64,000 bases of DNA from Tridacna crocea. Its lineage: Eukaryota > Mollusca > Bivalvia > Cardiida > Cardiidae. The stretch is taken from contig OX031070.1 in the NCBI GenBank assembly GCA_943736015.1, positions 40,292,173 through 40,356,172 of the forward strand, in the 5' to 3' direction. This document shows, in pieces, positions 1,269 to 63,466 of the stretch (the stretch's first letter is position 1; every line of letters begins with the position of its first letter). Under the pieces are notes generated by a model that saw nothing but the letters and a program-made list of their open reading frames with translations, was not told the DNA's origin and did not search any database. The position numbers were made by a program, and so were the translations under genes.

Positions 1269-1722
1269 TTAACTCTTTACCAAGTTTACGACAAAATTTT
1301 AGACTGGTCCAAATTAACACTTTTCAAGGCATTTCTATGGCATCTCTAATTGATCCTAAATAACAGCAAGGATGAAGCCGTTTCTTATGTGTAAATGACA
1401 CCTTTTGATAGTATAGGAAACATTGTGGCAAAAGGTGAAACTGCTCGTCACGAGCGATTTCACCTTTTGCCACAATGTTTTCCAAAGTCTCCTAAAAGCA
1501 ATGTGTAGAAATGAGTATCTATGGAGTGAAGGGTTAAAAGCATTTGCAAACGACAAAATAAACGTGGCTCAAAAAATTGAAATTTGTTTTGAGAAGGGTA
1601 GAAAACATTGTGGGAAAAGGAGAAAATGCTGGTTACCAGCATTTTCTGCTTTTCCCACAATGTTTTCAAAAGGCTTCTTTCCCAGGTGTGTTAAAAGTCA
1701 GGATTGTGTGGTAAAGAATTAA
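1269..1722 (-). mobile_element. Family A MITE split by a nested family B MITE
   Basis: Outer TTAA sites are at 1269-1272 and 1719-1722. The A sequence runs from ACTCTTTACCAAG to GGTCCAAATT, stops at TTAA, and resumes after the family B copy at AAAGCATTTGC. The central hairpin is intact apart from one arm mismatch (TTTTCTGC). Confidence 0.85.
1314..1537 (-). mobile_element. Family B TTAA MITE nested in family A
   Basis: Bounded by TTAA on both sides. Contains the family B hairpin TTGTGGCAAAAGGTGAAA with inverted arms, plus the arms ATTTCTATGGCATCTCTAAT and ATGAGTATCTATGGAGT shared with copies at 3779, 21152 and 63550. Its insertion inside an A copy shows B was mobile after that A insertion. 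Confidence 0.85.
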
Positions 1723-1786
1723 GTCCCGTTTTCACAGAACACGGCCCAAATCGTCTTCACTATTTCTGCACAATGGTAGCTTATGT

Positions 1787-2228
1787 CACGGCGGGGAATC
1801 ACGTGACACAACAACAAAAAGAATGACCGACATTTGAAGAAATTCCCCCACTTCAGGTAAGAAAATCTTCAATAATTCCGTTAATACGTGACCGATTGGA
1901 ATTTGGTTTGAAGCAGAGAAGGTGGAAGGACTCCGGGGATTTGCTTGATGTGTTAGATTTTTTAAACAACACCTGATAAAAAAGTTATTGACGAGCAAAC
2001 AAATTATCCAGGGTAAAAAATTTGTTTGCTCGTCAATAACTTTTTTGTTTAAAAAATCTAACACATCAAGCAAATCCCTGGAGTCCTTCCGCCTTCTCTG
2101 CTTCAAACCAAATTCCAATCGGTCATGTATTAACGGAATTATTGAAGATTTTCTTACCTCAAGTTGGGGAATTTTTTCAAATGTCGGGTCATTTTTGTTG
2201 TTGTTGTGTCACGTGATTCCCCGCCGTG
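1787..2228. mobile_element. Family G long fold-back element, copy 1
   Basis: A 442-bp near-perfect inverted repeat with ends CACGGCGGGGAATCACGTGA, centred near 2010 (GACGAGCAAACAAATT with its complement). The flanks show a direct repeat TTATGT (1781-1786 and 2229-2234), a candidate 6-bp target duplication. The overlapping open frames on both strands are mirror images of each other and are not genes. Confidence 0.8.
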
Positions 2229-2299
2229 TTATGTCTGTATGATGGTACTTCTGAAGTCGTTCGAGCATAGAAGATTTGCGTCGAAATGAATCATTGTGG

Positions 2300-2492
2300 T
2301 TAACTCGTTACCAAACGATCCAAATTGAAAGCATTTGCAGACGACAAAATAAATATGGTTCAAAAATTGAAATTTCATTTGGGAAGGGTAAAAATACATT
2401 GTGGGAAAAGGAGAAAATGCTGGTTACCAGCATTTTCTCCTTTTCCAACAATGTTTTTCTAAGGGCTTCTTTCTCAGGGTTGTTAAAAGTCG
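2300..2492 (-). mobile_element. Family A MITE, right end replaced by family I
   Basis: Starts at TTAA with the ACTCGTTACCAAACGA end and carries the full hairpin. It stops after GGTTGTTAAAAGTCG, where family I sequence begins, so the distal ~25 bp are lost. Confidence 0.8.
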
Positions 2493-2711
2493 CTGTTCCC
2501 CTTGGCGTACCCGTCCCGCATAACAACGCATTACAATATTACGTCAAGCGCAAGAAATGGAAGGTAAATGACGTCATATTTCCCATCTGGTTGTTAGGCA
2601 CGCGCAATTTACCTAGGCAACAAGAACGTGAAAATCGGTATTTTCACTGGTCGTACCAGTGTAAGATCGAAAAATATTTTCACTGCTATTTCTCGATATC
2701 CTACTGGAAAT
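2493..2711 (+). mobile_element. Family I element, 3' part only
   Basis: Matches the right portion of the family I copies at 21645, 27284, 31626 and 59503 (GGCGTACCC, GCATTACAATATT, GTCAAGCGC, CGATATCCTAC). The left fold-back of about 150 bp is missing. Confidence 0.7.
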
Positions 2712-2792
2712 AATGAAATAAATAAAATCTAATTTGTCTATAAACTCACTGAATCTTGCGTTGAGCTGGCTCGAAGTTTCTTGCAGATGAAT

Positions 2793-3024
2793 TTAAACTA
2801 TTTACCAAACGACAAAATTTTAGACCTGTCCAAATTGAAAGCATTTGCAGACGACAAAATAAATGTGACTTGAAAATTTAAATCTGCTTTGGAAAGAAAA
2901 GAAAACATCGTGGGAAAAGGAGAAAATGCTGGTTACCAGCATTTTCTCCTTTTCCCACAATGTTTTTAAAAGGCTTGCCTATCAGGGTCGTCAAAAGTCG
3001 GGATTGTGGGATGAAGAGGTAAAT
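2793..3024 (-). mobile_element. Family A TTAA MITE
   Basis: Left TTAA and TTTACCAAACGACAAAATT end, GCATTTGCAGACGACAAAAT block and full hairpin. The right end is decayed (GATGAAGAGGTAAA instead of GGTAAAGAGTTAA). An AATAAA lies on this strand in the block next to the hairpin, as in many copies. Confidence 0.8.
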
Positions 3025-3322
3025 ACCTTTTTCACAGAGCAAATAAAATGAATTTTAGATCATATGATGTGAATGATCTTTATACAGAACCGGTCATAGA
3101 TCAGACAGGTCATAAAATACAGTCCGATCTTGATCGATGATGTTCACAGAGCGACTAGTCTTATCCTGAGCATGGCGAAGCCAAGTTTCCTAAATAAATC
3201 TCGAAAAACTCAGTTGTTGTATATTCTACAGCCGCTTTCTATACTGCAGATACTGATCCAACAGCATGGTCTGTGTAGACTAATCTTGATCTACGTTGTC
3301 CCTAAACAGCATTGATTTGACA

Positions 3323-3551
3323 TTAACCCTTTCCCAAACGACAAACTTTTGGACTAGACCAAATTGAAAGCATTTGCAGACGACAATTCAATTCTTGCTG
3401 AAAAGATGATTTCTGTCTATGATAGGGTAGAATACATTGTGAGAAAAGGAGAAAATGCTGGTTACCAGCATTTTCTCCTTTTCCCTCAATGTTTTCCAAA
3501 GGCTACTATTCCAGACCCATAAAAACCAGGGATTGTTTGGGAAATGGTTAA
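3323..3551 (-). mobile_element. Family A TTAA MITE (CCCTTTCCC subtype)
   Basis: Complete, TTAA to TTAA. Ends read CCCTTTCCCAAACGAC and its complement, and GATAGGGTAGAATACATTG precedes the hairpin. Same subtype as copies at 8453, 28644, 40911 and 62937. Confidence 0.9.
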
Positions 3552-3778
3552 TAAACCGTATATATTACATATAATTACCATTGTTGGTCCGAGATGTTGC
3601 GGAAATACCTTCAATTCAAGTCTCAAATCAGTCAATAAAACCAGTCTATATTTACCGAGTATTTCAAATTGATCAATATCGATTGCGCAGTGGAATGTAA
3701 TGAAATCTAATCAATCAAACTCAGCGCTATCTATTTGATTTGGATTCTACTCTCACAATTCAAGTTGCTTAACCCTTT

Positions 3779-3997
3779 ACTCCATAGATACTCATTTCTA
3801 CACATTGCTTGTAGGAGCCTTTGGGAAACATTGTGGCAAAAGGTGAAATTGCTCGTGACGAGCAATTTCACCTTTTGTCACGATGTTTTCTATGCTATCA
3901 AAAAGTGTCATTTTTACAAAAGAAACTGCTTCATCCTTGCTGCTGTTTAGGGTCAATTAGAGATACCATAGAAATGCCTTATGGGGTAAAGGGTTAA
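3779..3997 (+). mobile_element. Family B TTAA MITE
   Basis: Complete: TTAA, CCCTTTACTCCATAGATAC, hairpin arms GTGAAATTGCTCGTGACGAG, then TTATGGGGTAAAGGG and TTAA. Its right TTAA (3994-3997) is also the left boundary of a family E element. Confidence 0.9.
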
Positions 3998-4551
3998 AGG
4001 TGGGTATTTAGAATTTTTACATCTCACCAAATTAAAATATATATATATATATATATCACTGAAATTCATATGAAAAAATAATACAAATCATCAATAATTA
4101 AGATTCATAAAATTACAAAAAAAATTTTTTTGGGTGGTATTCCCTAAAAAGGCTACGTAGCCTCTTAAGCTATTTTTAGATTTCGCGCCAAAAATCAATA
4201 AATCATTGTGGGAATGTCAAGTGACTGGCACATGACTCATAACGCTTAAATTCCCTATCATAACAAATATGTAATAATTATTTTCCATAATGTCTTCTTC
4301 GGACGCTATGTTTGAAGCTTCTTCTGTGTATTCCTGTAAGTAAATGAGCGAATTGATCATCTAAAAATAGAATGTGTCTCCCGTTAGAGTCAACCTGGGC
4401 CGTAGTAAATCTCTAATTTCTCGTGTTGTCGGACGGTTTTCGATTACTGGGGTTTTATGAATGAAAATTAAAAGGCTTTGGGAGTATAAGGATGTTTTTT
4501 TTTTGCACTTTTGTAAAATTTTCGTCCCAAAATGTGAAGGGCCACCTTTAA
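3994..4551 (-). mobile_element. Family E TTAA MITE, copy 1
   Basis: About 558 bp with inverted ends TTAAAGGTGG / CCACCTTTAA. Shares GGCTACGTAGCC, TTTCGCGCCAAAAATCA and CATTCATAAAACCCC-type blocks with copies at 18118 and 23999. An (AT)n run at 4036-4056 lies inside. No coding capacity is visible. Confidence 0.85.
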
Positions 4552-4703
4552 AGTATACATGTAGATCGCAATCAAACTTTGCACTCTAGGATGAGCGACC
4601 GTCCGGTTTTAACACTCTATCAAACGATAGAACCTTGCACTACCGAAATGAAAGTACTTGTACATGACAAATTTAAAGTCGCTAAAACGCTGATATCACT
4701 CCT

Positions 4704-4934
4704 TTAACACTTTACCAAACGACAAAATTTTGGAATGGTCGAAATTGAAAGCATTTGCAGACGATAAAATAAGTGTGGTTGAAAATTTGAAATTTGTTTT
4801 GTGAAGGGTAGAAAACATGGTGGGAAAAGGAGAAAATGCTGGTTACCAGCATTTTCTCCTTTTCCAACAATGTTTTCAAAAGGCTTTTTATACAGGTGTG
4901 TTAAAAGTCGTGATTGTGTGGTAAAGAGTTTTAA
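4704..4934 (-). mobile_element. Family A TTAA MITE
   Basis: Complete from CACTTTACCAAACGAC to GGTAAAGAGTT plus TTAA. The hairpin has two unpaired changes (CATGGTGGG against CCAACAATG). Confidence 0.85.
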
Positions 4935-4937
4935 TGG

Positions 4938-5050
4938 TTAGAAAAAGTTGTGGGAAAGAGATAATGCTTGTTATCAGCATTTTACCTTTCTTCACAATGT
5001 TTTCAAAAGGCTTCTTCTGAAGGGTCGTTAAAACTTGGAACTATGTGATA
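4938..5050 (-). mobile_element. Degenerate family A fragment
   Basis: Decayed hairpin (TTGTGGGAAAGAGATAATGC, TTCACAATGTTTTCAAAAGG) and right arm with GGGTCGTTAAAAC. The left arm is absent; it abuts the previous copy. Confidence 0.6.
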
Positions 5051-5132
5051 TATAGGATCTAACATGACTTGGTTTTTGAGATAAAATTTATTAAACGAGT
5101 CTACAGAAAATGTCATTAAGCGAGCCATTGGC
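5045..5132 (+). repeat. Dispersed ~90-bp repeat (pair with 58621-58711)
   Basis: Shares TATAGGAT, TTTTGAGATAA, TTATTAAACGAGTCTA and TTAAGCGAG in the same order and orientation with 58621-58711. The flanks differ. Class unknown. Confidence 0.55.
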
Positions 5133-5249
5133 GAGATTTGTTGTTTTCGCCATCATTTGCCATCGCCATCATTCGCAGTGTTTTCAAACGTGATCTGGCA
5201 GTAAACCTTTTACCACACAATCAATGCATAACCGAAGCCAAGTAATCCA

Positions 5250-5806
5250 CAGCTTCGCGAGCCAAGGTTACGATCAGTACTCGGATCTTACCTTGGCGAA
5301 TCGAGTCCGATTTCGTGATTTCCGCAAAACGACCCCTATTGGATGCTGCTTATTCTCTTCCTTTACATCATATTTCTTATAGCCGGTGAAATATCGTTTT
5401 GCATACCGCTTACGAATACAATAGCTTGTAATTCAACATGAAGCATTAAACACAAACGTCATTCGATATTCCAGGGTCGGGTGCTGGGATATAGTCTAAA
5501 AACTCTGATAATTTATTGGTCACACTGAAACTTGCTGTAAATATTGTTCTTCTATGTTTTTTTTTTTTCGGTAATAAATCACTACAGATGCTGCACGGAG
5601 GTGTCTGTGCTTACCTCCTATTTTTATCCGAAAGGTCGCGACCTTGTTCTATTTTTATCAAAGATGAAATGCCACGAGCGATTTGATTCGTGCAGTAAGA
5701 GCCAGCTGCAACCAATGAAAAGGCGTATCGGGGAATGTCGAAATCAAGCTCGATCTGCTAAGGGTAGAGCAGCGTAGTGGATCGTCACCCATGGCTTGCG
5801 AAGATG
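5250..5806 (+). mobile_element. Family H MITE, divergent enlarged copy
   Basis: Ends CTTCGCGAGCCAAGG and GGCTTGCGAAGATG, with shared blocks TACCTTGGCGAATCGAG, GCGACCTTGTTCTATTTTT and AAGCTCGATCTGC. About 150 bp longer than the other copies because of extra sequence around 5430-5620. The flanks AGTAATCCA / AATAATCCA fit a decayed 9-bp duplication. Confidence 0.7.
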
Positions 5807-5929
5807 AATAATCCAAAGACATACATGATAAACCGGTCTTTTTGATATGTCATTCTAGTGAATATGTTTGTTTCATTTTCCTCCATAAATTACAAAAAAA
5901 AAAAAACCCAAAAGCTTTATCTAAAGGGG

Positions 5930-6150
5930 TTGGGTTCATGCTTAATACGTACGGAGCTCGCACAGGCTAATATTGGTCGAAACTTTTTGGTATGGCTAAA
6001 CTTTCTGCGTTTCCAAGGACCAGACTATCTTATGATTCAGTCCATTGTTAGATAAAATGAATTTCATGGACCCATAATTATGGAATAAGATTTTTGGTAT
6101 AATGCGGCAGGTAGATTCATTAAATACCGACTTGCCAGAGCGCCCCGTAT
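5930..6150 (+). repeat. Family D-like remnant
   Basis: Weak similarity to family D: AAAGGGGTTGGGTTCATGCTTA, CGCACAGGCTAATATTGG, GGTCGAAACTTTT and a terminal TTGCCAGAGCGC. No ends could be fixed. Confidence 0.35.
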
Positions 6151-6175
6151 ATATATCAGTGGTTACGTCTTTTCT

Positions 6176-6406
6176 TTAACCCGTTACTACAGAATAACGC
6201 CTTATAACGATCCTGAGGAAGAAGCCTTTTGAAAAGATGGTGGGAAAAGGAGAAAATGCTGGTAACCAGCATTTTCTCCTTTTCCCACAATGTTTTCTAC
6301 CCTTCCCAAATCGAATTTCAGTTCTTTATTCACATTTATTTTGTCGTCTGTAAATGATCTCATTTTGGACTAGTCTTAAATGATTTGTCGTTTGTTAAAA
6401 AGTTAA
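6176..6406 (+). mobile_element. Family A TTAA MITE
   Basis: Complete, TTAA at both ends. The left end is altered to CCCGTTACTACAGAATAAC. The hairpin is perfect around GCTGGTAACCAGC, and the right arm carries GTCGTCTGTAAATG. Confidence 0.85.
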
Positions 6407-6434
6407 TATAAAGAAGAACGTGACCACATGTTCA

Positions 6435-6633
6435 TTTGACTCTTTACCAAACGACACAATTTTAGACTCGTCCAAATTGAAAGCATTTGCAGACGACAAT
6501 TTCAGTGTGGCTCAGGCAGTGCAATTTTTCTTTCACAGGTATTTCACCAGCATTTTCTCCTTTTCCCACAATGTTTTTAAGAGGCTTCTTACCCAGTGGT
6601 TTTAAAAGTCGGGATTGTGTGGTAAAGAGTTAA
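6435..6633 (-). mobile_element. Family A MITE with only half a hairpin
   Basis: Outer arms are intact (CTCTTTACCAAACGACACAA; GGTAAAGAGTTAA). The left hairpin arm is replaced by TTTCACAGGTATTTCACC, so the palindrome cannot form. The left TTAA has become TTGA. Confidence 0.8.
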
Positions 6634-11139: not shown

Positions 11140-13722
11140 ATGGCGGATATAGTTGTGTCTCGGAAAGTGTTTTTTATTGGGGCATGGCGTACACCAAACG
11201 TAACTGACCAGCTTCTCCAAGTTATTAGTAATAAAATGCATGAAAAGAACGGATATTCAACCGATCTCAGTCTAGCAACAGACGGCCTGTATCTGAACAT
11301 TCATAACATCAACGGACAAGTCACTAAAACGGATAAAATACCTTTGGAAATTATTGCAGACTTTATAGATAATATATATGACAATACATGTCTCTTGGCC
11401 AAGGTCAAGGACCATCGAGATCAGTTCACTGTGTTTGTGTTTCTTTGTCAAAACGAGAAAGATTCGGCAGCAATGGTACAGGAGTTCCAGAAGCTGAAGA
11501 AAAACCTGAGCGGGGAAGGTTACAATCTAGATATGAAACAATCTGGTACAAATTGGATGTTGAAGAACAAGGATACAGATAAGGCAATTCAACAGCCTAA
11601 CGGTGACGTCAAGTTGACAACCGCCACGACAACAGTAACGACTACTGCGACAAGGATAAGCAACAGTAGTGTTCCTGACAGTGTTTCACATACATCTGTC
11701 AGTTCTGATGTCCGAGACGAGATCAATGTACTTGCACAAGAAGTCAAAGATATAAGACTTATGATGCAGAAATCTGGGGGCCGTCATCATTTTGCGAAAC
11801 ACTACGGTTACCTCCGCAGTCCTCCGCCAACACAAACCACGATAAATCGGCAAGTGTTCACAGATGAGGTTTTTCTACAACCAGATCAAGTATCAAACGA
11901 AGTTAACATGGTCAAGAGGCATTACACCAAAAGAGGACCCGAGCATGGCGTGGTCTTGGTCCGAGAGCGACAAGGTATGTACAAACAACGTCAGTCTACT
12001 TCCAGTCACTTCTTGCGATCTTCTTCGCAATCTTCATTGGCAAGCTCTGTGAGAAAAAGGGTGTATCCCTCCCCTGCTCCAGTAACAGAATCTAGATATG
12101 TTGTACCACAACAGCGTGTCGAAACTATGAGGCTTATCAGCCCAGGCCAAACGCCAGCCATAAGAAAAGTGTACACCGGTAGTGCCTCTGATATAGTGCC
12201 CAGAAATATAGAAAACGTTTACAAATCAAAAAAGATGTACAAGAGGGTAATACCTGTTGGATCTGTCTCATCAGCTCGAAGTGAAATCTACGATTATGTT
12301 CAAGCCCACCAAAAGCCCGTGTTTGATGATAATACCTATGCGGAACCAGTTCGTAGCGTATATATGAATAGTGTTCCTCAAAGAGTGGTGAAGGGAGTTA
12401 CTACGCATATCAGGTATGAGCCTGGCGACAGAAATCTTTATGAGGACCCAACATTCAAGCAGCAAAGACAAGACGTTTCCAACGTAAGCACTCTTGTTAA
12501 TGTTTCCTCCAATAACATACTGGATGACAGCCAACATGTGGAAGTCAACAAGACACACGTTTATCGAGAAGCTCCAAGATCAGAACAAGTAGTTATCATA
12601 GGAGGTAACGAGATCCAGACAAGCGCAAATTACGATGAACAAATTACATCTACACATAGAAACGAGACACAATCTCACAATGTGATCATGGTCACACAGG
12701 ATGATGAAAATCGTGTTAAGCGAGAACGTGAAGAAGAAATTAGCACGACATATAGAAATGGGACACAGTCCGAAAACGTAATTGTTGTCAGAAGTGAGGG
12801 GAATATTGTTCAAAGTACAAAACCGACAGTGCAAGAAGAGGGTAATGTTATTTACGTTAAGAGTGAACATCATCAAGTTCAAGCATTCGACGACAACCCA
12901 CGGGTTATAGGCGGCGAAGTTTACCATGTCAAAGCTAAAGGACTAGAACATTATGATAGCAATTACTACCAGGCTACTAATGGCAACAACGCTGTCATCA
13001 TCGATGGCAAAAATTATGATGATGTTCAGAAAGCTTTTACATCTAATGTAACTGTCATTTCTGGGGATGTCAGTCAAGGTCTTTGGGGAGCCTATGCCAA
13101 AAAGCCTGAAGAATATAATCCGGGTATCGAAATCGAGAAGGAAAAGGCTTACAAATATACACATGATACCGAACCAGCCTCCTCGTCAAACGTCGTCGTC
13201 ATTTCTGGAGATACCAACCAAGGCCTTTGGGGAGCGTATGCTCAAAAGCCAGAACCCTATAACTCAGACAATGAAATCGAGAAAGAAACAGCTTACAGAT
13301 ATAGGCCTACACACGATAAAGCCGAAGAAAACAGGGACCAAGAAGCTGAAAATGGCTTAAATAATGAGCCGCATGTTCCTGAAGTACAGCACGAGAAGAA
13401 GGTACATTACTCAGAGGAGCTTGAGCAAACGATTGAAGATCGGATCGATGACAGAGAAAATGACATTGATGTAGCACATTATGCAATCGACGCCATTGAC
13501 AATGAACGCGACGTGAATGATGAGACTGATGCTGAAGTGAAACACATAAATACAAAAGTCGATGACGACGAAAACAATAACAATGGAGAAACAGAGGCAC
13601 CGCATATCGAAGAGAACAGCAAGACAGACACTGATATGACAAGTGTCACTACCGAAAACCTTCTGATGGAGGAATTAAGAGAAAAAGTTTCGCAGGCCTC
13701 AGAGTCCACTCTACTATTTTAA
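11140..13722 (+). CDS. PTB/PH-like domain protein with long low-complexity tail and 48-residue tandem repeat
   Basis: An uninterrupted frame of 860 residues. The ATG has a good context (A at -3, G at +4). Residues ~5-125 (VFFIGAW..., then an LSLATDGLYLNI strand, an IPLEIIADF strand, a TVFVFLCQN strand and a final Ala-containing helix) match the strand/helix order of phosphotyrosine-binding domains. This is inferred from pattern only, and sequence identity to known members looks low. A Thr/Ser-rich linker (~155-190) and an arginine/serine-rich section (~280-310) follow. V637-N684 and V685-~T732 are two copies of a 48-residue unit (ISGD, QGLWGAYA, KP, EIEKE, AYKY/AYRY). Residues ~735-840 are strongly acidic. 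No signal peptide or membrane span, so probably a cytosolic scaffold. No relatives among its neighbours; specific function unknown. The coding region carries none of the repeats that fill the flanks. Confidence 0.85.
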   Translation: MADIVVSRKVFFIGAWRTPNVTDQLLQVISNKMHEKNGYSTDLSLATDGLYLNIHNINGQVTKTDKIPLEIIADFIDNIYDNTCLLAKVKDHRDQFTVFVFLCQNEKDSAAMVQEFQKLKKNLSGEGYNLDMKQSGTNWMLKNKDTDKAIQQPNGDVKLTTATTTVTTTATRISNSSVPDSVSHTSVSSDVRDEINVLAQEVKDIRLMMQKSGGRHHFAKHYGYLRSPPPTQTTINRQVFTDEVFLQPDQVSNEVNMVKRHYTKRGPEHGVVLVRERQGMYKQRQSTSSHFLRSSSQSSLASSVRKRVYPSPAPVTESRYVVPQQRVETMRLISPGQTPAIRKVYTGSASDIVPRNIENVYKSKKMYKRVIPVGSVSSARSEIYDYVQAHQKPVFDDNTYAEPVRSVYMNSVPQRVVKGVTTHIRYEPGDRNLYEDPTFKQQRQDVSNVSTLVNVSSNNILDDSQHVEVNKTHVYREAPRSEQVVIIGGNEIQTSANYDEQITSTHRNETQSHNVIMVTQDDENRVKREREEEISTTYRNGTQSENVIVVRSEGNIVQSTKPTVQEEGNVIYVKSEHHQVQAFDDNPRVIGGEVYHVKAKGLEHYDSNYYQATNGNNAVIIDGKNYDDVQKAFTSNVTVISGDVSQGLWGAYAKKPEEYNPGIEIEKEKAYKYTHDTEPASSSNVVVISGDTNQGLWGAYAQKPEPYNSDNEIEKETAYRYRPTHDKAEENRDQEAENGLNNEPHVPEVQHEKKVHYSEELEQTIEDRIDDRENDIDVAHYAIDAIDNERDVNDETDAEVKHINTKVDDDENNNNGETEAPHIEENSKTDTDMTSVTTENLLMEELREKVSQASESTLLF

Positions 13723-19608: not shown

Positions 19609-19834
19609 ATAAATTCTTTACCATACTGTAAAATTCTAGATTTGTCCCAGTTGAAAGCATTTGATGACCAAAAAATATATGAAACGTGCACTATGCTGTC
19701 TGTCATAGGGTAGAAAACATCGTTGGAAAAGGAGAAAATGCTGGTATCTAGCATTTTCTCCTTTTCCAACAATGTTTTCCAAAGGCTTCTTTCTCGGTGT
19801 CTTTAACTGTCGGAATTATTAGGTAAAGGCTTAA
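19609..19834 (-). mobile_element. Family A TTAA MITE
   Basis: Left TTAA lost (AAATTCTTTACC), right TTAA present. Hairpin arms read GTTGGAAAAGG and CCTTTTCCAAC, a change present in both arms. Confidence 0.85.
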
Positions 19835-35496: not shown

Positions 35497-35872
35497 GCCG
35501 GTGTAATGCAGATAAATGACCCTCCCCTAAAAAATGACCCATGGTTCATTTCACTACGTAGAGGAATGACCCACGAGTCATTTTGTAGGGGAGGGTCATT
35601 TCACTACGTAGAGGAATGACCCACGAGTCATTTTGTAGGGGAGGGTCATTTCACTACGTAGAGAGATGACCTATGAGTCATTTTGTAGGGGAGGGTCATT
35701 TCTCTACGTAGGGAGATGACCCATGACTCATTTTGTAGGGGAGGGTCATTTCTCAACATAGAGAGATGACCCATGACTCATTTTGTAGGGGAGGGTCATT
35801 TCTCAACATAGAGAGATGACCCATGAGTCATTTTGTAGGGGAGGATCATTTCTCTGCATTACACCGGCTCTA
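35497..35872. mobile_element. Family L element: 50-bp tandem hairpin array with inverted ends
   Basis: Inverted ends GAGCCGGTGTAATGCAG / CTGCATTACACCGGCTC enclose units that begin TTTTGTAGGGGAGGGTCATT exactly every 50 bp (35581, 35631, 35681, 35731, 35781, 35831). Each unit contains a small palindrome with a TACGTA or equivalent centre. Related modules are at 21467 and 58311. Confidence 0.88.
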
Positions 35873-36082: not shown

Positions 36083-36282
36083 AAAAGTCCAAGTTGAATG
36101 AACTTGCAGGCTAAAAAAAAAAACGCAACTCAAGAATTGAAATTTGTTTCCAGCGGGGCAGAAAACATTGTGGGAAAAGGAGACAATGCTGGTTACCAGC
36201 ATTGTCTCCTTTTCCCACAATGTTTTCAAAAGGCTTCTACCTCAGGGTCGTAAAAACCAGGGATTGTTTGGTAAAGGGTTAA
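36083..36282 (-). mobile_element. Family A MITE, left end truncated; compensated hairpin
   Basis: The hairpin reads GGAGACAATGCTGG / CCAGCATTGTCTCC: the usual A and its partner T are both changed, so pairing is preserved. Right TTAA 36279-36282. Confidence 0.88.
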
Positions 36283-37126: not shown

Positions 37127-37346
37127 TTAACCCTTTACCACACCATAACGACTTTTAACGTCTCGGACGAAGAAGCCTTTAGAAAACGTTGTGGGAAAAG
37201 GAGAAAATGCTGGTAACCAGCATTTTCTCCTTTTCCCACAACGTTTTCTACTCTATCACAAAATAAATGCATCATATGAGCCACTGTGAGATAATCATCT
37301 GCAAATTTGAATAGGTCTAAAATTCTGAAGTGGGGTAAAGGGTTAA
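37127..37346 (+). mobile_element. Family A TTAA MITE; compensated hairpin
   Basis: Arms read AAAACGTTGTGGG and CCCACAACGTTTT: ATT has become GTT on the left and AAT has become AAC on the right. The hairpin is otherwise perfect. Confidence 0.9.
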
Positions 37347-37870: not shown

Positions 37871-38102
37871 TTAACCCTTTCCCAAACGACAAATTTTAGA
37901 CTCTTCCAAACTCAAAGAGTTCGCAGATGACAATTTCAAATTTGATAAAAGAAAATAGCATAAAGTTCTCCAAATGAGTAGAAAACACTGTGGGAAAAGG
38001 AGAAATTGCTCGTTACGAGCAATTTCTCCTTTTCCCACATTGTTTTCAAAAGACTTCTACTGCAGACACGTAAAAACAAGAGCTTGTTTGGGAAAGGGTT
38101 AA
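37871..38102 (-). mobile_element. Family A' MITE nested in family F
   Basis: TTAA to TTAA; hairpin GAGAAATTGCTCGTTACGAG as in the copy at 7194. Splits family F within ACTTTTAAGATAGA. Confidence 0.9.
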
Positions 38103-38220
38103 GATAGACATCAAAGGAATTTCTGGTCGGTTAAAAATGTGCAAAACTATTATATTTGTATAAATCTTGTCTTTATCAACTGTCAAGAAATTTTATGCCA
38201 TGCTGCACTAGAAGTATTAT

Positions 38221-38671
38221 CACGGCGGGGAATCACGTGACACAACAACAACAACAATGACCGTTATTTGAAAAAACTCCCCAACTTCTGGTAAGAAAAT
38301 CTTCAATAATTCCGTTAATACGTGACCGATTGGAATTTGGTTTGAAGCAGAGAAGGTGGAAGGACTCCTGGGATTTGCTTGATGTGTTAGACTTTTTAAA
38401 CAACACCTGATAAAAAAGTTATTGACGAGCAAACAAATTATCCAGGGTAAAAAAATTGTTTGCTCGTCAATAACTTTTTTATCAGGTGTTGTTTAAAAAA
38501 TCTAACACATCAAGCAAATCCCTGGAGTCCTTCCACCTTCTCTGCTTCAAACCAAATTCCAATCGGTCATGTATTAACGAAATTATTGAAGATTTTCTTA
38601 CCTGAAGTCGGGGAATTTTTTCAAATAACGGTCATTGTTGTTGTTGTTGTGTCACGTGATTCCCCGCCGTG
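38221..38671. mobile_element. Family G long fold-back nested in family F
   Basis: 451-bp near-perfect inverted repeat, ends CACGGCGGGGAATCACGTGA. Flanks ATTAT (38216-38220 and 38672-38676) suggest a 5-bp duplication, against 6 bp at the other copy. Centre GACGAGCAAACAAATTATCC. Confidence 0.85.
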
Positions 38672-38866
38672 ATTATGGATCCACTACCTTAAGTAATAAT
38701 CAATTATCACAATTTCAATTTCCATTCCTCAATTTTGAGGGTTTTTAACTTTCCCGGTTGTCTTGCTAAGTGTTAGTGCAGAGTGGAGGCTTAATGATGT
38801 AGAAAGTAAATGTCATATCTTTCCAACAGAAACCGAAAGATGAAAAAAAAAAATCCCATATATTGT

Positions 38867-39493: not shown

Positions 39494-39718
39494 CCCATTA
39501 CCAAACGACAAAATTTTAGACTGGTTCAAATTGAAAGCATTAGCAGACGACAAAATAAAGGTGACTGAAAAATTGAAATTTGTTCTGGGAAGGGTAGAAA
39601 ACACTGTGGGAAAAGGAGAAAATGCTGGTTACCAGCATTTTCTCCTTTTCCCACAGTGTTTTCAAAAGGCTTCTGTCGCAGGGGCGCCAAAAGTAGGGAT
39701 TGTGTGGTAATGGGTTAA
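39490..39718 (-). mobile_element. Family A TTAA MITE; compensated hairpin
   Basis: Complete; arms ACACTGTGGG and CCCACAGTGT both differ from the usual ACATTGTGGG / CCCACAATGT, keeping pairing. Confidence 0.92.
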
Positions 39719-53963: not shown

Positions 53964-55106
53964 ATGCTCCTATTAAATCTGGCATTGCTTGCAGTACACT
54001 GCATGTTGTTTTACGTCGTTATACGGATCGGAAACTGTTTTAGAGTTATGGATATTATTCCCGTTCTTCACTCGAAAGATTCTGTGTTGACCAAATACCT
54101 TCTTCGAAAGTGTGGACTGTTAAATAAACCCTTTTGCCCTCAACGCTTTTTAAGAGACAGATATGTTCAAACATTACTTGGATATTTTTATAACGCAACG
54201 TCAGGTGTTACCTTTGAGCGGGAATATGTCCAAATGTATGATAAAGGAGTGGTTGCCCTTGACTGGTATAGAAGTCATTTACAAAAGTTACGGAGTAACA
54301 GTCCAATTTTGGTGATATTTCCGAGACTAACCGGGGACGCAATAAGCGTGGCAAATATTTGCAGACTGGCGTCATCCAAGAGTTATCGGACTGTGGTTAT
54401 CAATAGACGAGGCCATGGAAATAGTTTGTTGACAACTCCGAAATTGACCAGTGCAGGGGATCCAAGTGATGCCAAACAGGCGATAGAGTATATATTTTAT
54501 AAATACCCGTATGTTCAAATGGTTGGGGTCGGTTTTGGAGCAGGGTGCGCCACTCTATTTTCTTATCTTGGTGAGCGTGGTTCTTCGTCTTTACTGAGAG
54601 CTGCTGTATGTATTTCTCCGTCTTACGACAATACAGAAAAACTTTGTGAACAAATACCGAAATTTTACGAACTGCTAGCTTTGATAAACCTGAAGAGAAT
54701 GCTTCTTCGATACTTTAATGCTTTACATAAGATCATTGACGTCAAGGCAGCTATCCTCAGAGCGTGGACTTTAAAAGATTTCGATTTTCATGTTTACTGC
54801 AAGATGAACGGAATCGAAACTTTTGAGGCATTCTGGAAGAAAAACGATCCAATGAGAGACGTGGACGATATCGCTGTACCGGTGCTCTGTTTGAACAGCA
54901 TTGATGACCCGGTGTCGACCGTAGATAATATCCCGTTTGATTTGTTCAATTTTTATCCAAATATGCTGTTAGTAACTCTTGAAAAAGGGGGCCATTGCGC
55001 GTTTCACGAGCGCCTGCAAGGGCCTTCCTGGGCAGAACATTTGACAATTCATTTCATGGAAAGCGTCTTAGACTTTATTGCCCATTCAAAGTACTTGTAT
55101 AAGTGA
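53964..55106 (+). CDS. ABHD1/ABHD3-type alpha/beta-hydrolase lacking the nucleophile (putative pseudoenzyme)
   Basis: 380 residues. The ATG is fixed by an in-frame TAA two codons upstream. Residues 2-24 form a hydrophobic anchor, as in membrane-tethered ABHD1/2/3 lipases, followed by PFCPQRFLRDRYVQTLLGYF, which matches the start of the family's core. Other landmarks: PRLTGD at 120-125 (oxyanion region, usually PGLTG), NRRGHGN at 147-153, the nucleophile elbow, DDPV at 314-317 (acid), and GGHCAF with His344. The elbow reads G190-F-G192-A-G, where the family has G-x-S-x-G, so Ser is replaced by Gly; acid and His remain. The frame is otherwise intact and similar in length to relatives (~400), so the change is not simple decay. 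Vertebrate relatives have many introns; this frame has none, which suggests a retrocopy. Probably non-hydrolytic; binding or scaffold roles are inference. A novel nucleophile elsewhere cannot be excluded. Confidence 0.9.
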   Translation: MLLLNLALLAVHCMLFYVVIRIGNCFRVMDIIPVLHSKDSVLTKYLLRKCGLLNKPFCPQRFLRDRYVQTLLGYFYNATSGVTFEREYVQMYDKGVVALDWYRSHLQKLRSNSPILVIFPRLTGDAISVANICRLASSKSYRTVVINRRGHGNSLLTTPKLTSAGDPSDAKQAIEYIFYKYPYVQMVGVGFGAGCATLFSYLGERGSSSLLRAAVCISPSYDNTEKLCEQIPKFYELLALINLKRMLLRYFNALHKIIDVKAAILRAWTLKDFDFHVYCKMNGIETFEAFWKKNDPMRDVDDIAVPVLCLNSIDDPVSTVDNIPFDLFNFYPNMLLVTLEKGGHCAFHERLQGPSWAEHLTIHFMESVLDFIAHSKYLYK

Positions 55107-57552: not shown

Positions 57553-58242
57553 CTATATGACGCAAGGCAAAACGGCAACGCATCCAACCCCGATATTTAC
57601 GTTATCGTAACAGGTCCGCGTACCGTTACATTGCTGAAGTTGTACTCTTCGGCTAGCATACTTTGGTACACATTCAATTAAAGAGCTCGAGATAGCGGTA
57701 ACTCTGTCCCGTCGGCAGAAGGCCTCCTGTAAAGACCTCTTCCAAGAAGCTTCGAGACGCCTTCGGTATGCCCATGGACATAGCTCTCTCTGCTCATCGG
57801 AAGCGCAACTTTCACTTCGCTTTATCCTATTTGACAGTTTATCCGTCACGTGAGACGTGACGTCATCATCTTTCAAAATGGCGTCATTTCTCATGGTCTT
57901 AATAACATTATTAATCTGCTTCTGTATACCTAGTTGGTTGCTTTTGCTTATAGTCTTGATATTAAATGGTATGTTTTCTAATAGACTATCCCTTCCTATC
58001 AAAGATGAGTTGAGATCGTCAGCACTGTGGTGTACCTCATCACCTTTTATATTGAGAGCTTTCACAACAGCTGAGTACCGACCTTCATTATCATGCCGTC
58101 CAGAACCATTCCTTATGTTGTTAAGTAATTTCAAAATGAAATCATCTGAATGAACACCAGCATTGTAAGATGTGCTGTAATTGTCGGATGTTGAAGCAGC
58201 CAAACTTTTAGTTAAAGTCAAAACTATCAGAAGAAGTCTCAC
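57553..58242 (-). CDS. IL-17-like secreted cytokine, terminal coding exon
   Basis: The frame of 229 codons opens at the 3' side of a splice acceptor (TTTTCTTACAG|GTGAGACTT) with GTG as its first codon and an in-frame stop upstream, so the ATG exon lies to the right and is not identified. Residues 2-17 (RLLLIVLTLTKSLAAS) make a signal peptide core. A hydrophilic pro-region follows, then R139-I-K-R142, a furin-type site. The ~87-residue mature part has eight cysteines (146, 155, 176, 191, 205, 211, 221, 227) and the IL-17 landmarks CPWAY (155-159), LQEAFC (171-176), ECVP (190-193), CNGT (205-208) and IGVGCVAVLP (217-226). The usual CxC near the end (VGCTC) is VGCVA here, so one family cysteine is displaced. 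NXS/T sites at 21, 45, 78 and 206. Role by family: secreted dimeric ligand of IL-17 receptors in innate immunity. Stop TAG at 57553-57555. Confidence 0.82.
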   Translation of the reverse strand: MRLLLIVLTLTKSLAASTSDNYSTSYNAGVHSDDFILKLLNNIRNGSGRHDNEGRYSAVVKALNIKGDEVHHSADDLNSSLIGRDSLLENIPFNIKTISKSNQLGIQKQINNVIKTMRNDAILKDDDVTSHVTDKLSNRIKRSESCASDEQRELCPWAYRRRLEASWKRSLQEAFCRRDRVTAISSSLIECVPKYASRRVQLQQCNGTRTCYDNVNIGVGCVAVLPCVI

Positions 58243-58256
58243 CTGTAAGAAAACGA
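58243..58256 (-). promoter_or_regulatory. Splice acceptor of the IL-17-like gene
   Basis: On minus, CGTTTTCTTACAG directly before the open frame: pyrimidine-rich, with AG. It explains the absence of an ATG at the start of the signal peptide. Confidence 0.65.
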
Positions 58257-58310
58257 CGTTTTATTGTCAGTCATATCGTAAATTTTGTTGCTCACATGCA
58301 CCTGTAATCA

Positions 58311-58520
58311 GAACCGGTGTAATCAGAGAAATGACCCTCCCCTATAAAATGACCCACGGGCCATTTCACTCTGTAGAGAAATGACCCGGGTCATTCCTCC
58401 ACGTAGTGAAATTACTTCTGGGGTCATTTCTCTACGTAGAATAATGACCCGGGTCATTCCTCTACGTAGTGACATTACTTCTGGTGTCATTTCTCTACAT
58501 AAGCCGTACAACGGCGTAAA
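58311..58520. mobile_element. Family L element, second type
   Basis: AACCGGTGTAATCAGAGAAA left end, ATGACCCTCCCCTATAAAAT, then alternating TCATTCCTCCACGTAGTGAA and TCATTTCTCTACGTAGAA units (~80-bp period). It lies in the putative intron of the IL-17-like gene. Confidence 0.8.
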
Positions 58521-58620
58521 AAAAATACGTATCAAATCAGGGTCATTTACGGTTCCAATGATGATATGATGACGAAACCTGTTAGTGAAATTATTCTGAT
58601 TAGTTTTGACTGACTAAAAC

Positions 58621-58711
58621 GTTGTGATATCTATAGGATTTGACATGAGTTGACTTTTGAGATAAGATTTTATTAAACGAGTCTAGGGAAATGTTATTAA
58701 GCGAGTCTTTG
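58621..58711 (+). repeat. Dispersed ~90-bp repeat (pair with 5045-5132)
   Basis: TATAGGATTTGACATGAGTT, TTATTAAACGAGTCTAGGG and TTAAGCGAGTC match 5045-5132. Confidence 0.55.
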
Positions 58712-58827
58712 ATGTGTACACCGACTGCCGTGATAGACCCGTACATTGTACTGTTGAAAACGGTGATAACCACGAAAAAAAAAGATAACAATGTTTAATC
58801 ATAAAAAATTAGCATTACACTGACTTT

Positions 58828-59045
58828 TATCTCTTTACCACATCATTCCGACTTTCAACGACACTGAAAAAGAAAGCCTTTTGAAAACAATGTGGGGAAA
58901 GGAGAAAATGCTGGTAACCAGCATTTTCTCCTTTACCCACATTGTTTTCTACCCTACCGAAGGAAAATTGCACCATTTGAGCCACACTGAAGTTGTAGTC
59001 TGGAAATGCTTTCAGTTTAGATAAGGCTGTAATTTTGAAGTCTTA
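58828..59045 (+). mobile_element. Family A MITE; compensated hairpin
   Basis: Arms read AAAACAATGTGGG and CCCACATTGTTTT, so the usual ATTGTG / CACAAT pair is changed on both sides. Ends have decayed (TTATCTCTTTACC). Confidence 0.85.
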
Positions 59046-59207
59046 TATAGAAGATAATCAACTGGTTATTTTCGATATGAGAAATATCTCACGAGGATGC
59101 GTTGTTAGGTGTTGAAAAAACGAGTGCTCAGCACGAGTTTTTTTTAACGCCTTACGACGCATCCGAGTGAGATATTTTTCATGTCAAAAATAACCAGCTG
59201 ATTATTC
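59046..59207. repeat. Inverted repeat, arms ~70 bp
   Basis: CAACTGGTTATTTTCGATAT, GAGAAATATCTCAC, AGGATGCGT and their complements (AAAAATAACCAGCTG), with a centre ACGAGTGCTCAGCACGAG. A single copy in the window. Confidence 0.85.
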
Positions 59208-59502
59208 TATTTATTATATGTGCCTTATTAACATCATTATTTTTAATTTTTCGTTTGAAAGTCGAAATCAATACTTTGGATAGAGAGAAGAAATCAGGGA
59301 ATAAAGGAACAAAACGAGACTACTGGTTGAAAATATGGAACTTACAATTAACACTATCTATAAGTGCTTAATGAAAAACAAAAGTCACGAGTTCCTAAAT
59401 TACGGCAGTGAGTGAAACTGAAAGTTGATATCGTCACTAGTGATGATATCAAAATTTATTACACTGGGAAATTCCAGGATTTCACTGCTAGGTATATAAT
59501 AA
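59208..59502. other. No gene or repeat recognised
   Basis: AT-rich with a small hairpin ATATCGTCACTAGTGATGAT at 59428. Confidence 0.4.
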
Positions 59503-59909
59503 ATAGAGGATATTTGCTTTTTTCGGTGAAAGATCGAAATTTATTTCATCGAGTGAACACCGTCGGTAATATTTTCACGAGTGGCATAAATTTCGATCTT
59601 TCACCGAAAAATACAAATATTCTATCTATTTCATGCTTTTAACCCTTTCTAGGAGGAGCTTTATCAAAATCCAGTACAGTTCTTCCCCGTGGCGTACCCC
59701 TCCCGCATAGCAACGCATAGCAATATTACGTCAAGCTCGTGAAATGTAAGGTATATGATGTCATATTTCCCATCTGGTTGTGAGGCACGCGCAATATACC
59801 AAGGCAACAAGAACTTGAAAATCGGTATTTTCACTGGTGGTACCTGTGTAAGATCGAAAAATATTTTCACTGCTATTTCTCGATATCCTACCGAAAAGCA
59901 TGAAATAAA
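59503..59909 (+). mobile_element. Family I element, fold-back shortened
   Basis: GGTGAAAGATCGAAATTTAT to ACGAGTGGC, then directly ATAAATTTCGATCTTTCACC: most of the second inner arm is deleted. The right module is intact to CGAAAAGCATGAAATAAA. Confidence 0.82.
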
Positions 59910-60134
59910 AAAGGGTTATATAACAACTAATAATGATAACTACCATTTTAAAGCTGCCTGCACAAAGCTTGAAATCTTCAGTATATAGAAATCTATTTTC
60001 TGGTATTCTGAGCGTTTGTAAATTGGTTTTTGACCAAATGTAAAAGGAATGGAACAGTATTTATACTAAATCCAACATGCTTGTTGGCAAACAAATGAGC
60101 TGCTAAAATTTTAGGGAATTTTTTTATTCGCCGG
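59910..60134. other. No gene or repeat recognised
   Basis: Unassigned AT-rich sequence. Confidence 0.4.
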
Positions 60135-60357
60135 TGAACACTTTACCAAACGGTTAAACTTTTAGACTGAACCAAATTGAAAGCTTTGCAGAAAAAATAT
60201 AAATGTTGCACAAATTATGAAATCTGTATTTGAAAGGGTAGAAAATTTGTGACAAGGGTAATTAATGCTGGTTACCAGCATTGTCTCCAATTCCCACAAT
60301 GTTTTCAGTCTTTTTTCTTGGGGTCGTTACGAATAGGTGTTGTGCGATAAAGGTTTG
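60135..60357 (-). mobile_element. Degenerate family A MITE
   Basis: CACTTTACCAAACGGTTAAA, GGTTACCAGCATTGTCTCC and GGGGTCGTTACGAATAGG. The left hairpin arm is damaged (GTGACAAGGGTAATTAATGC). Confidence 0.7.
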
Positions 60358-60594
60358 AATCGTAATTTTTCATCCGACTGTAGTTCTATAGTCGCTCCCC
60401 ATCGAATCGAACACAATCTACCTCTTTTGTAATCTGGGCGAATCATAAAGCGATATGAAATGAAGTTTAGTCAAATCATGTTTATATCTAATCTGTGACA
60501 TTTCTTGTCATATTTGTAGAGATAGAGCAATCAATACTGACTCAACTAACCATGTGCCTCTACGTGTGATTTTAGATTCCTATTGCGTCTTCTT

Positions 60595-60810
60595 AATAAC
60601 TTTTGACCGCATAACCAAACTGTAATACACGTGAAAATTAAAAGTGTCAGCAGACGACATTTCAAAACTTCGTTTTAATGATAGAATTGGTCGTGAAAGG
60701 ACTGAAACACTGTGGAGAATGTAGATGCTGGTTACTAGCCCCGTCTCTTTTTCCCCACAATGTTTTCAAAAGATGTCCCGCTTTTGGTCGTTAAACACAT
60801 CGGAACAAAA
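60595..60810 (-). mobile_element. Degenerate family A MITE
   Basis: GTGTCAGCAGACGACATTTC, GATGCTGGTTACTAGC, CCCCACAATGTTTTCAAAAG and TTGGTCGTTAAACAC. Confidence 0.65.
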
Positions 60811-60934
60811 CACTTCCGGTCATAGGAGCCAAAAAAAGTAGTTCCATTTAAAAATGCGATTTTGTGAGAAAGGCAATTGGAAGACAGGTCTGACAATTAT
60901 TCCTCTCATGCTGTGTGTTGATACATCTGCATAT

Positions 60935-61104
60935 TGGCTGCAACACGCGAAAAGGTGCACTCGGACTTTTGCGTTAAGTGGCGTCTCGGATCAGCCTGCG
61001 CAGTCCGCACAAGCTAATCCGAAACGACACTTTCCGTTTTAGGCTGATCCGAGACGACACTTTACACAAACGCCCGAATGACCCTTTTCGCGTGTTGCTG
61101 GCCA
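60935..61104. mobile_element. Family C MITE with internal deletion, copy 5
   Basis: TGGCTGCAACACGCGAAAAG to CGCGTGTTGCTGGCCA, 170 bp, lacking ~95 bp of the middle relative to the other copies. Confidence 0.85.
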
Positions 61105-61312
61105 ATAATAGCATCAACACATGCCAGTCTGCGCGAACTGCAGGCTGACCTAGGTCGAAACTTTTCGCTATTTACTGGTTTTCTACTTCTGAAAGAACCA
61201 GTCAATCCCATAATTTGTTGATAGACAAAATGAAATTTATAGACCCATTATTATGCCATAACGTGTTTGTTACAATGCATTATGGAGATCATTTATCCAG
61301 AGCATGGCTGGG
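61105..61312 (+). mobile_element. Family D-like element
   Basis: ATGCCAGTCTGCGCGAACTG, CTGACCTAGGTCGAAACTTT and CATTATTATGCCATAA. The right side ends ATCCAGAGCATGGCTGGG. Confidence 0.5.
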
Positions 61313-61433
61313 TTTGCTATTTCAACGATGTCGTTAGTAGCTCTTCGTTGTATTTCTTGTGGAAACGTTTGGAGCCTGTGATAACGTGACGTAACATGGT
61401 CTGCAACAAGAAGTACAGAGATTGACGTTGTCT

Positions 61434-61762
61434 GCGCATGTCATATTTTTCGAAGATTCGACCTGTCTCATATAACGCATCACTCTCCCCGATATCCGGG
61501 AGAGTGTAATAATATGCGCTATTAAGTAGCAATTGAGAAAATGGCTTTTATCAATAGGGTTGAGGAGAAATCACGCCTGTTTTAGCTCCAGATTTCTCTA
61601 AACTGCTGATCATAGCTGAGTGAATCGAATCAGGTAGAGTTCTATTGAGTAAACGTTTATTTTAGTTTGAAATTCAAAGTAACGGTTGTCGCGTGGAAAT
61701 GTGGTCCGGTCCCGTGTACCCAGGATGCCCAAATTCGATAGATGAGTACTTGTAGAATCAGG
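61434..61762 (+). repeat. Dispersed ~330-bp repeat (pair with 22967-23296)
   Basis: GCGCATGTCATATTTTTCG, CTCCCCGATATCCGGGAGAG, GCAATTGAGAAAATGG, GTTTTAGCTCCAGATTTCTC, AAATGTGGTCCGGTCC, TCGATAGATGAGTAC: the inverse of 22967-23296. Includes a small palindrome at CCCGATATCCGGG. Confidence 0.75.
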
Positions 61763-62230
61763 GGTAACCTACATCAGACATTTTAAACCCGCCATTTTCG
61801 TTTTAAAAAGGTAAGTGTTTCAGCTTGTACACTTTTGTTATTGAAGATCTGTTCAAACAAAACAGTGCATATGGTACCTGACAACTTTCTTCGTTAGTAT
61901 ACATTAATATTTTGTTCATTAGTTTCGTTGATTTTGCAATTTCCTCCGCACAATTTTCGAGGCCGGTGACACATGTGGGATTTAAAAATAGATGTAGTAT
62001 ACAATGCCGTTAAGAATAATTGTGTTGAAGTGTTTAGAACTACAACATTGTTTCATGGCATTTTGATTTTACGAATAGGACAAATATATTTACCGTCACC
62101 AGATGACGTAGCTATTCTTAGTAAATTTTAGACACATACATCTTTTTAAAGTCATTAATCTGCACTTTGCGCACAAAATGGCGGCTATTCCGACACGTCT
62201 GCTATGACGTAGGTTGTCACCCTTGAGAAT
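61762..62230. mobile_element. Candidate element with GGGTAACCTACATCAGAC ends
   Basis: Left GTAACCTACATCAGACATTT, CCCGCCATTTTCG and right AAATGGCGGCTATTCC, GACGTAGGTTGTCACCC pair imperfectly over ~40 bp. The ~380-bp interior is AT-rich and non-coding. Single copy. Confidence 0.5.
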
Positions 62231-62389
62231 GCGGGAGATAATGCATAGATTGGTTATTTTCCCGATACCCCTCAAGTTATATCTGTATTTAAAACGAGTA
62301 TCAGTTCATGCAACGACTCATCGCTTCCTTTTACTGTAACCTTCCGATGTATGCGGTGTTTTACGTTTTACTATACATGTATTACAATA

Positions 62390-62613
62390 TTCAAGACTTG
62401 TCCAAATTAAAAATATTCGCAGACTGCAGACCAAAATGTTGCATAAAATGATCAGATTTACCTTTGTGAAAAGGATTGTGGGAAGAGCAAATTTTGTTTT
62501 ATATGATTCTCTCCTCTTTCCACATATTTTTCTTATTTTACGTTTTCTTATGCAGGATCATTGAAATAAGTCACACTAATTAATTCTGTGTCGGACTGTT
62601 TGGTAAAGGGATA
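62390..62613 (-). mobile_element. Degenerate family A MITE
   Basis: CAAGACTTGTCCAAATTAAA, TCGCAGACTGCAGACC, GGATTGTGGGAAGAGC and GACTGTTTGGTAAAGGGATA. Confidence 0.65.
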
Positions 62614-62936
62614 AGGGAGGAAGATAAAGTTGTGTTGCTCACAATACAATTTTCTTCGCGTCTATTGCGAGTCGCTGGAGTAAATATTTCGTAGAAATAA
62701 AAGCCGAGAAAAAAACCGCAGAGAGTAAAAAAAAATGACTGATGATCTGTGGAAAAGGGGGCTTAATGCATCTTCAAAAATATCGACTTAGGTCAGTGTG
62801 CGCAGTCCGCACCGGTTGATGGTTAGATAAAGATGGTTCCCACGTGATGTTTAACTTGATGAGAATAAGGAAACTCTTCGCAGTACTTTTATCGCCATAG
62901 GGTACTCTAGTTCTTATCGGTGACTATTGTTGCCTT
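62614..62936. other. No gene seen; family D end
   Basis: GTGGAAAAGGGGGCTTAATG at 62750-62770 and TCGACTTAGGTCAGTGTGCG form a D left half; the rest is unassigned. Confidence 0.45.
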
Positions 62937-63165
62937 TTAAACCTTTCCCAAACGACAAACTTTTGGACTAGACCAAATTGAAAGCATTTGCAGACGACAA
63001 TTCAACTCTTGCTGAAAAAATAATTTCTGTCTATGATAGAGTAGAAAACATTGTGGGAAAAGGAGAGAATGCTGGTTACCAGCATTTTCTCCTTTTCCCA
63101 CAATGTTTTCAAAAGGCTACTATTCTAGACCCGTAAAAATCAGGGATTGTTTGGGAAAGGGTTAA
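62937..63165 (-). mobile_element. Family A TTAA MITE (CCCTTTCCC subtype)
   Basis: Complete 229-bp copy, nearly identical to 40911-41140. One base is lost from the left C-run (TTAAACCTTTCCC). Confidence 0.92.
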
Positions 63166-63235
63166 CCATCAAGAGATAAAGGTATCGATGGTAGAAGATG
63201 TAGATCAAGGTAAGGCTACAGAGAACGTGCAGTTT

Positions 63236-63466
63236 AAACAACTCATTACCAAACGACAACATTTTAGGCTTGTCCAAATTGAAAGCATTTGCAGACCACA
63301 AAATAAAAATGACTGAAAATTTGAAATTTCTTTTGTGAAGGGTAGAAATCATTGTAGGAAAAGGAGAAAATGCTGGTTACCAGCATTTTCTCCTTTTCCC
63401 ACAATGTTTTCAAAAGGCTTCTTTCTCAGGGAAGTCAAAAGTAGGGATTGTATGGTAATGGGTTAA
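63236..63466 (-). mobile_element. Family A TTAA MITE
   Basis: Left end AACAACTCATTACCAAACG (TTAA decayed), right GGTAATGGGTTAA. Hairpin with ATCATTGTAGGAAAAGG change on one side. Confidence 0.88.

Follow-up and report, generated by a model that had tools for sequence, protein, structure and literature searches.

Paired substitutions in the internal palindrome of a TTAA-flanked MITE of Tridacna crocea suggest inherited variants and recurrent arm-to-arm copying

In a window of 64,000 nucleotides from the bivalve Tridacna crocea (contig OX031070.1, positions 40,292,173 to 40,356,172; coordinates below are those of the window), we analysed a hairpin, the palindrome inside a non-autonomous TTAA (piggyBac-like) miniature inverted-repeat transposable element (MITE). 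The palindrome consists of 33 pairs and one centre base, and some copies carry substitutions in both arms that preserve pairing. We found that changes in both arms are mostly complementary at stem pairs 24, 27 and 21, and that the rare paired states at pairs 24 and 27 recur in scattered copies. The best explanation, which we consider probable, combines the inheritance of paired states with recurrent copying from one arm to the other in inserted copies.

According to this explanation, the common paired states would have been fixed in source lineages and then copied into subfamilies, as linked changes in the outer arms suggest, and a point mutation in one arm of an inserted copy would occasionally be copied into the other arm. 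The route may be quasipalindrome template switching at the replication fork or repair of an extruded hairpin. If copying is unbiased, an equal number of single-arm changes would presumably have been reverted unseen.

Complementary changes at stem pairs

A census of stem pairs was made on 175 copies with at most four gaps in the palindrome, with nine similarity-selected copies dropped. Among the 5,775 stem-pair cells, both bases were consensus in 4,992, only the left in 317 or only the right in 306 was changed, 67 were paired changes, 29 had non-complementary changes on both sides, and 64 were gapped. Single-arm decay was thus nine times commoner than paired change (623 vs 67 cells), and the 67 paired cells compared with 17.7 expected from independent columns. 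This excess comes largely from subfamily states, to which T8C contributed 14 copies and A26T and G31C six each. A7G, T8C, A26T and G31C were each linked to particular outer-arm letters; over the whole sequence compared, carriers of A26T and of G31C were no closer to each other than random copies (permutation p =.66 and.94). With the subfamily states excluded, there were 39 paired cells against 14.05 expected and 25 non-complementary doubles against 16.42; in the 147 least-changed copies, the same exclusion left 14 against 5.46 and 8 against 7.0. Since non-complementary doubles also exceed expectation, copies that differ in rate account for some of the paired excess, but not all of it.

Larger numbers were obtained from exact pattern counts across the 1.05-Gb genome (31 contigs). 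The 31-base core with pair 24 left free occurred at 186,284 sites, with a single-arm change at pair 24 in 2,442 and changes in both arms in 289, of which the C/G state made up 41 of the 50 listed. After left C and right G were set aside, 26 doubles remained, namely 17 G/C, 8 T/A and a single unpaired site, where 1.49 paired and 1.44 unpaired were expected. Complementary states therefore made up 25 of the 26 doubles, 16.8-fold over independence, compared with 0.7-fold for the unpaired class. At pair 27, 82 sites were changed in both arms (31 of the 50 listed were paired; p = 9e-4) and 3,234 in one; at pair 21 the corresponding figures were 223 (39 of the 50 listed; p = 2.5e-6) and 5,109. Scaled from the 50 listed, paired doubles exceeded independence 9.1-fold at pair 27 and 10.6-fold at pair 21. 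As a non-partner control, left position 24 was combined with right position 26', with which it does not pair, in both mirror arrangements; of the 45 sites, 16 were of the same type against 13.4 expected, and the 25:1 split at pair 24 differed from 13:9 in the control (p =.003). A copy-specific mutation type as the source of complementarity was thus unsupported.

The rare paired states were not confined to kindred copies. We compared carriers together with their flanks for 24 of the 26 pair-24 sites (16 of 17 G/C and 8 of 8 T/A) and, at pair 27, for 20 of the 31 paired sites in the list; the unpaired pair-24 site was compared as a 117-base stretch only. With ties counted, the nearest copy had the same state in 3 of 16 G/C and 0 of 8 T/A carriers, and in 0 of 10, 1 of 6 and 0 of 4 carriers of the pair-27 states, where random draws give a chance of.01-.07. 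These rates near chance indicate that the rare paired states at pairs 24 and 27 arose repeatedly. Several of the carriers, judged by eye, belong to the largest flank cluster, as is also the case for random copies. For the subfamily state C/G (A24C), a same-state copy was nearest in 16 of 22 against a chance of.09, and most of these 22 copies, two of which are one tandem pair in L046, resemble one subfamily. Paired carriers (44) and unpaired doubles (20) were about equal in flank score (.568 and.603), and the arm mismatch over the outer 14 pairs was.138 in the former vs.275 in the latter (p =.0009).

Several observations weigh against arm copying or narrow its support. At pairs 27 and 21, unpaired doubles likewise lie above the independent expectation (3.6-fold and 2.5-fold), which indicates that part of the paired excess is rate heterogeneity. 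The base shares, and the split into paired and unpaired at pairs 27 and 21, rest on the first 50 sites or 100 rows listed. The non-partner control is a ratio of types and gives no fold value, as the single-arm total of pair 26 lies outside the counts. G/C carriers at pair 24 were mutually nearest slightly above chance (3 of 16 vs about.07), and the excess at pair 21 may be inflated by subfamilies, the scatter covering pairs 24 and 27 only. Mismatch over the outer 14 pairs did not differ between paired carriers and the 20 single-arm carriers (.138 vs.171, p =.81). Inversion of the spacer is a hallmark of one template-switch route, and the flip of the centre base was not specifically coupled to paired changes: the centre was T in 9 of 44 paired carriers vs 6 of 20 unpaired doubles, with 1 of 19 in single-arm carriers and 3 of 70 in random perfect cores. 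Centre inversion was dropped as a direct hallmark because T was as frequent in unpaired doubles; the contrast (p =.01) held only against random perfect cores.

In the local copies, a centre T was found in 17 of the 173 with a letter there, and these were scattered. Genome-wide, 14,385 sites had centre T with a perfect right arm vs 41,219 with centre A. Among the matches listed, the first 100 sites extend over 34 Mb of one contig (C1) for T and over 3.5 Mb for A, and this difference in spread means that the ratio of T to A is not readable as an inversion rate. The T sites, sparse over these first 34 Mb, must therefore be denser elsewhere; one possibility is a locally multiplied T-centred variant or array.

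The first-pass annotation had proposed that either hairpin-templated synthesis corrects one arm from the other or the DNA or RNA stem is under selection. Rare paired states recur above non-complementary doubles, as hairpin-templated copying predicts, but maintenance of the palindrome by such copying was not supported. The paired excess amounts to 1.6% (pair 24, G and T only), 1.0% (pair 27) and 2.6% (pair 21) of the single-arm changes, so that copying affects only about 1-2.6% of them at the three counted pairs. This agrees with quasipalindrome correction between the arms that would be too weak to maintain the hairpin alone.

Conservation along the stem and alternative explanations

Conservation was uneven along the stem. 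Divergence from the global consensus was.072 for the whole stem vs.186 for the outer arms. In tight flank clusters (2 clusters, 31 copies, polymorphic columns excluded) it was.043 in the flanks,.045 in the outer 14 pairs,.021 in pairs 15-22 and.013 in pairs 23-33. The view that the hairpin is better conserved than the outer arms thus holds for the whole stem against the global consensus and for its inner part in tight clusters, but not for the outer 14 pairs. Among 54 nearest-neighbour pairs matched on their flanks, divergence was.077-.087 (flanks),.108 (outer 14),.070 (pairs 15-22) and.037 (pairs 23-33), and the innermost 11 pairs alone stood out as low.

The two target-site duplications (TSDs) of a copy start out identical, and the differences between them thus serve as a clock that subfamily history does not affect. 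Among 62 copies with clean ends in the large clusters, mismatch was 21/248 (.085) in TSDs, 74/847 (.087) in the outer 14 pairs and 40/1,115 (.036) in the inner 19 pairs (p =.0019 vs TSDs). The contrast was weaker over all 102 clean-ended copies, with.096 (39/408),.106 and.062 (110/1,782; p =.021). In both sets the outer 14 pairs diverged no less than the TSDs, and the inner 19 pairs lay below them 2.4-fold in the large clusters and 1.5-fold over the 102 copies. The possibility that the stem decays as fast as its surroundings was thus confirmed for the outer 14 pairs, which match flanks and TSDs, and not for the slower inner stem. Base context was unsupported as the reason, since context-matched flank rates predicted 196.5 changes in the inner stem where 75 were seen; for the outer stem 147 were predicted and 121 seen.

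Unbiased arm copying lowers mismatch but not divergence, which points to another process behind the slow inner stem. Fewer mutations, biased correction, conversion from other copies and assembly polishing are candidates that these data do not separate, and the slowdown is an effect separate from arm copying. One rather unlikely reading is that the arms serve as mutual backup templates, by which damage in the inner stem would be bypassed or repaired without error, its mutation rate would fall below that of the remainder of the insertion, and rare mis-copying would appear as paired changes.

Selection could act on the stem either as RNA or as DNA during transposition. It is the strongest of the alternatives and is compatible with arm copying; copies with broken hairpins would be less mobile and paired states would multiply. 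We regard it as possible, with the balance somewhat against it. The three largest flank clusters (57, 17 and 9 copies) differ in their flanks, yet their consensus stem is the same and pairs fully in all of them, which suggests constraint on source copies. However, selection gives no account of rare states in scattered, decayed copies, and it sits uneasily with four copies that share a mismatch at pair 7 (L002, L004, L005 and L007) and with the ends, which are needed for transposition and decay faster than the inner stem (.042 vs.013).

Ectopic gene conversion among copies, which would spread paired states and hold the inner stem at the consensus, could account for the slow divergence of the inner stem, both in the context-matched comparison and against the TSDs of the 62 and the 102 copies. 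It seems unlikely to us, as the rare states at pair 24 are present in only 17 and 8 exact cores genome-wide, which would make them improbable donors for one another, and no conversion tract was traced.

Inheritance by subfamily alone, in which each paired state would go back to a single fixation in a source element and owe its spread to transposition, without arm copying after insertion, fits the commonest states well. A24C, A7G and T8C are shared with relatives and, judged by the likeness of the outer arms, appear to be inherited family variants; A26T and G31C have their own outer-arm letters. For these states, the possibility raised in the first-pass annotation that each is an old subfamily consensus was supported. 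It fails for the rare states at pairs 24 and 27, which recur over unrelated copies with complementarity of 25:1 and 31:19 (50 listed), and inheritance as the sole process is accordingly improbable. An assembly artefact, in which polishing with reads from elsewhere in the repeat family shifts the inner stem towards the consensus or produces miscalled arms, is the least probable account: the slow stretch is indeed the part most alike among copies, but polishing to a consensus would erase rather than create rare complementary doubles, and several base types are affected at three pairs.

Individual copies and surrounding sequence

The hairpin and the five paired changes cited in the first-pass annotation exist, and its coordinates are correct to within some bases. 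The full MITE copy at 37127-37346 (plus strand), whose inner part served as the search seed, has TTAA duplications at 37127-37130 and 37343-37346, and its palindrome at 37182-37248 (plus strand; 33 pairs and one centre base) carries the paired change A7G. Among the relatives retrieved by similarity to this copy (L002-L007, L009 and L010), A7G is common to L003 and, with an additional paired C6T, to L006, L009 and L010; the shared mismatch of the other four lies at the same pair. The region 37184-37250 has a predicted DNA fold of -36.3 kcal/mol (z -15.1), and no Rfam family scored above its threshold within the window.

Two of the other palindromes carry subfamily states. The one at 36161-36227 (minus strand; copy 36086-36282) has A24C, as do its nearest copies in hand, L051 and L047, both fetched as A24C carriers. 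The one at 39597-39663 (minus strand; copy 39494-39718) has T8C, found in 14 of 175 copies and linked to C at outer-arm column 160 (11 of 14 carriers vs 4 of 153 non-carriers). The palindrome at 58883-58949 (plus strand; copy 58827-59043) has T8A; the outer arms of the nearest sampled copy differ from it by 0.235, and at this distance inherited and private origins of the change look alike in the sequence. G12T in the palindrome at 19713-19779 (minus strand; copy 19616-19834; nearest copy 0.279 away) occurred once among the 175 copies against 0.64 expected by chance. Unpaired stem changes are also present in these last two copies. The copy at 37875-38102 (minus strand) combines A26T and G31C, which co-occur in 5 of 175 copies, and L049 and L053 have two adjacent paired changes each. 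In L046 (C2:9883260-9883790), two hairpin cores 126 bp apart share identical unusual paired states, apparently through tandem duplication of part of a copy.

The MITE is about 225 bp long, with TTAA at both ends and short, imperfectly matched inverted ends, and its palindrome lies off-centre at consensus columns 56-122. The window, in which the first-pass annotation had named the span 1269-63466, yielded 47 full copies. Together with 20 regions of 10 kb each at round coordinates it gave 184 full copies in 264 kb (0.70 per kb), and placements including fragments covered 21% of the bases; full copies were absent from 3 of the 20 regions (L011-L013). A 20-mer of the palindrome had 93 matches in the window with at most three mismatches against 0.02 expected. 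A TTAA duplication flanked both sides of 69 of the 102 clean-ended copies, and 19 of 20 listed without it deviate on one side only. End agreement spans about 10 bp beyond TTAA, the left end being CCCTTTACCA and the right end, when read inwards, CYCTTTACCA; the left end is CCCATTACCA in the largest flank cluster, and the second base of the right end is more often T than C (column 225: A 94, G 65). On its sequence, the repeat resembles a piggyBac-type MITE, a class that has been defined by terminal inverted repeats of 12-19 bp with a CC[C/T]T end (PMC2872659).

A related family with the stem ATTGTGGCAAAAGGTGAAAY, which differs at several pairs, is found at positions 1422, 3830, 21213 and 63615. 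A second, far larger foldback lies at 38216-38676 (arms of 224 nt, 96% complementary, spacer of 13 nt), and tandem arrays of another short inverted-repeat unit (TCATTTCTCTACGTAGAGA...) at 35546-35855 and 58347-58498 have periods of 50 and 30-63 bp. A single open frame of 860 amino acids at 11140-13722, partly within a stretch of AT skew 0.20, may be an intronless gene or a long exon. Another, of 380 amino acids, at 53964-55106, presumably encodes an alpha/beta-hydrolase-like protein, judged by eye.

Relation to known systems

Evidence for template switching between hairpin arms usually comes from a small number of events. The 186,284 core sites make it possible to measure, in a single natural genome, the rates of arm copying, how these vary with base type and with distance from the tip, and any protection of the stem. 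Should neutral insertions really undergo such copying, a compensatory change in a repeat hairpin is not in itself proof of RNA selection; and if the arms act as backup templates, the genome would amount to a natural experiment in mutation accumulation on very many palindromes of nearly the same sequence.

None of the titles listed deals with copying between the arms of a MITE hairpin, and a search of paper texts for a 17-letter stretch of the stem gave no match. In the passages searched of a paper on Galileo (PMC4168063), 'gene conversion' and 'homogeni' were absent and 'template switching' occurred once. Perfect inverted repeats kept in evolution are also described for the coding palindromes of Nematomorpha, which unlike the MITE hairpin are mitochondrial and lie within genes (PMC6649704). 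The piggyBac-like CMITEs of Acropora (PMC2872659) are alike in TTAA duplications, in the CCCTTT-type ends of several families and in an interior better conserved than the ends. Their 60-bp internal sequence shows little self-inversion and aligns to the element studied here no better than shuffled sequence (score 20, matched by 75 of 300 shuffles).

Closer parallels come from template switching. In rRNA stems (Monttinen & Loytynoja 2022, PMC8794818), paired changes likewise arise in single events and loop inversion is rarely coupled to them; these stems are under RNA selection, whereas the MITE insertions are presumed mostly neutral. Quasipalindrome correction in yeast (Abraham & Hazkani-Covo 2021, PMC8604942) is alike in that one arm becomes the reverse complement of the other across a short spacer. 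The yeast events are multi-base differences between strains, while those in the MITE mostly concern single pairs and are inferred from counts over many copies, and in the MITE spacer inversion is not tied to the events. In yeast, nine of ten spacer inversions occurred on arms that were already perfect (PMC8604942), and the uncoupled inversion of the centre base in the MITE agrees with this.

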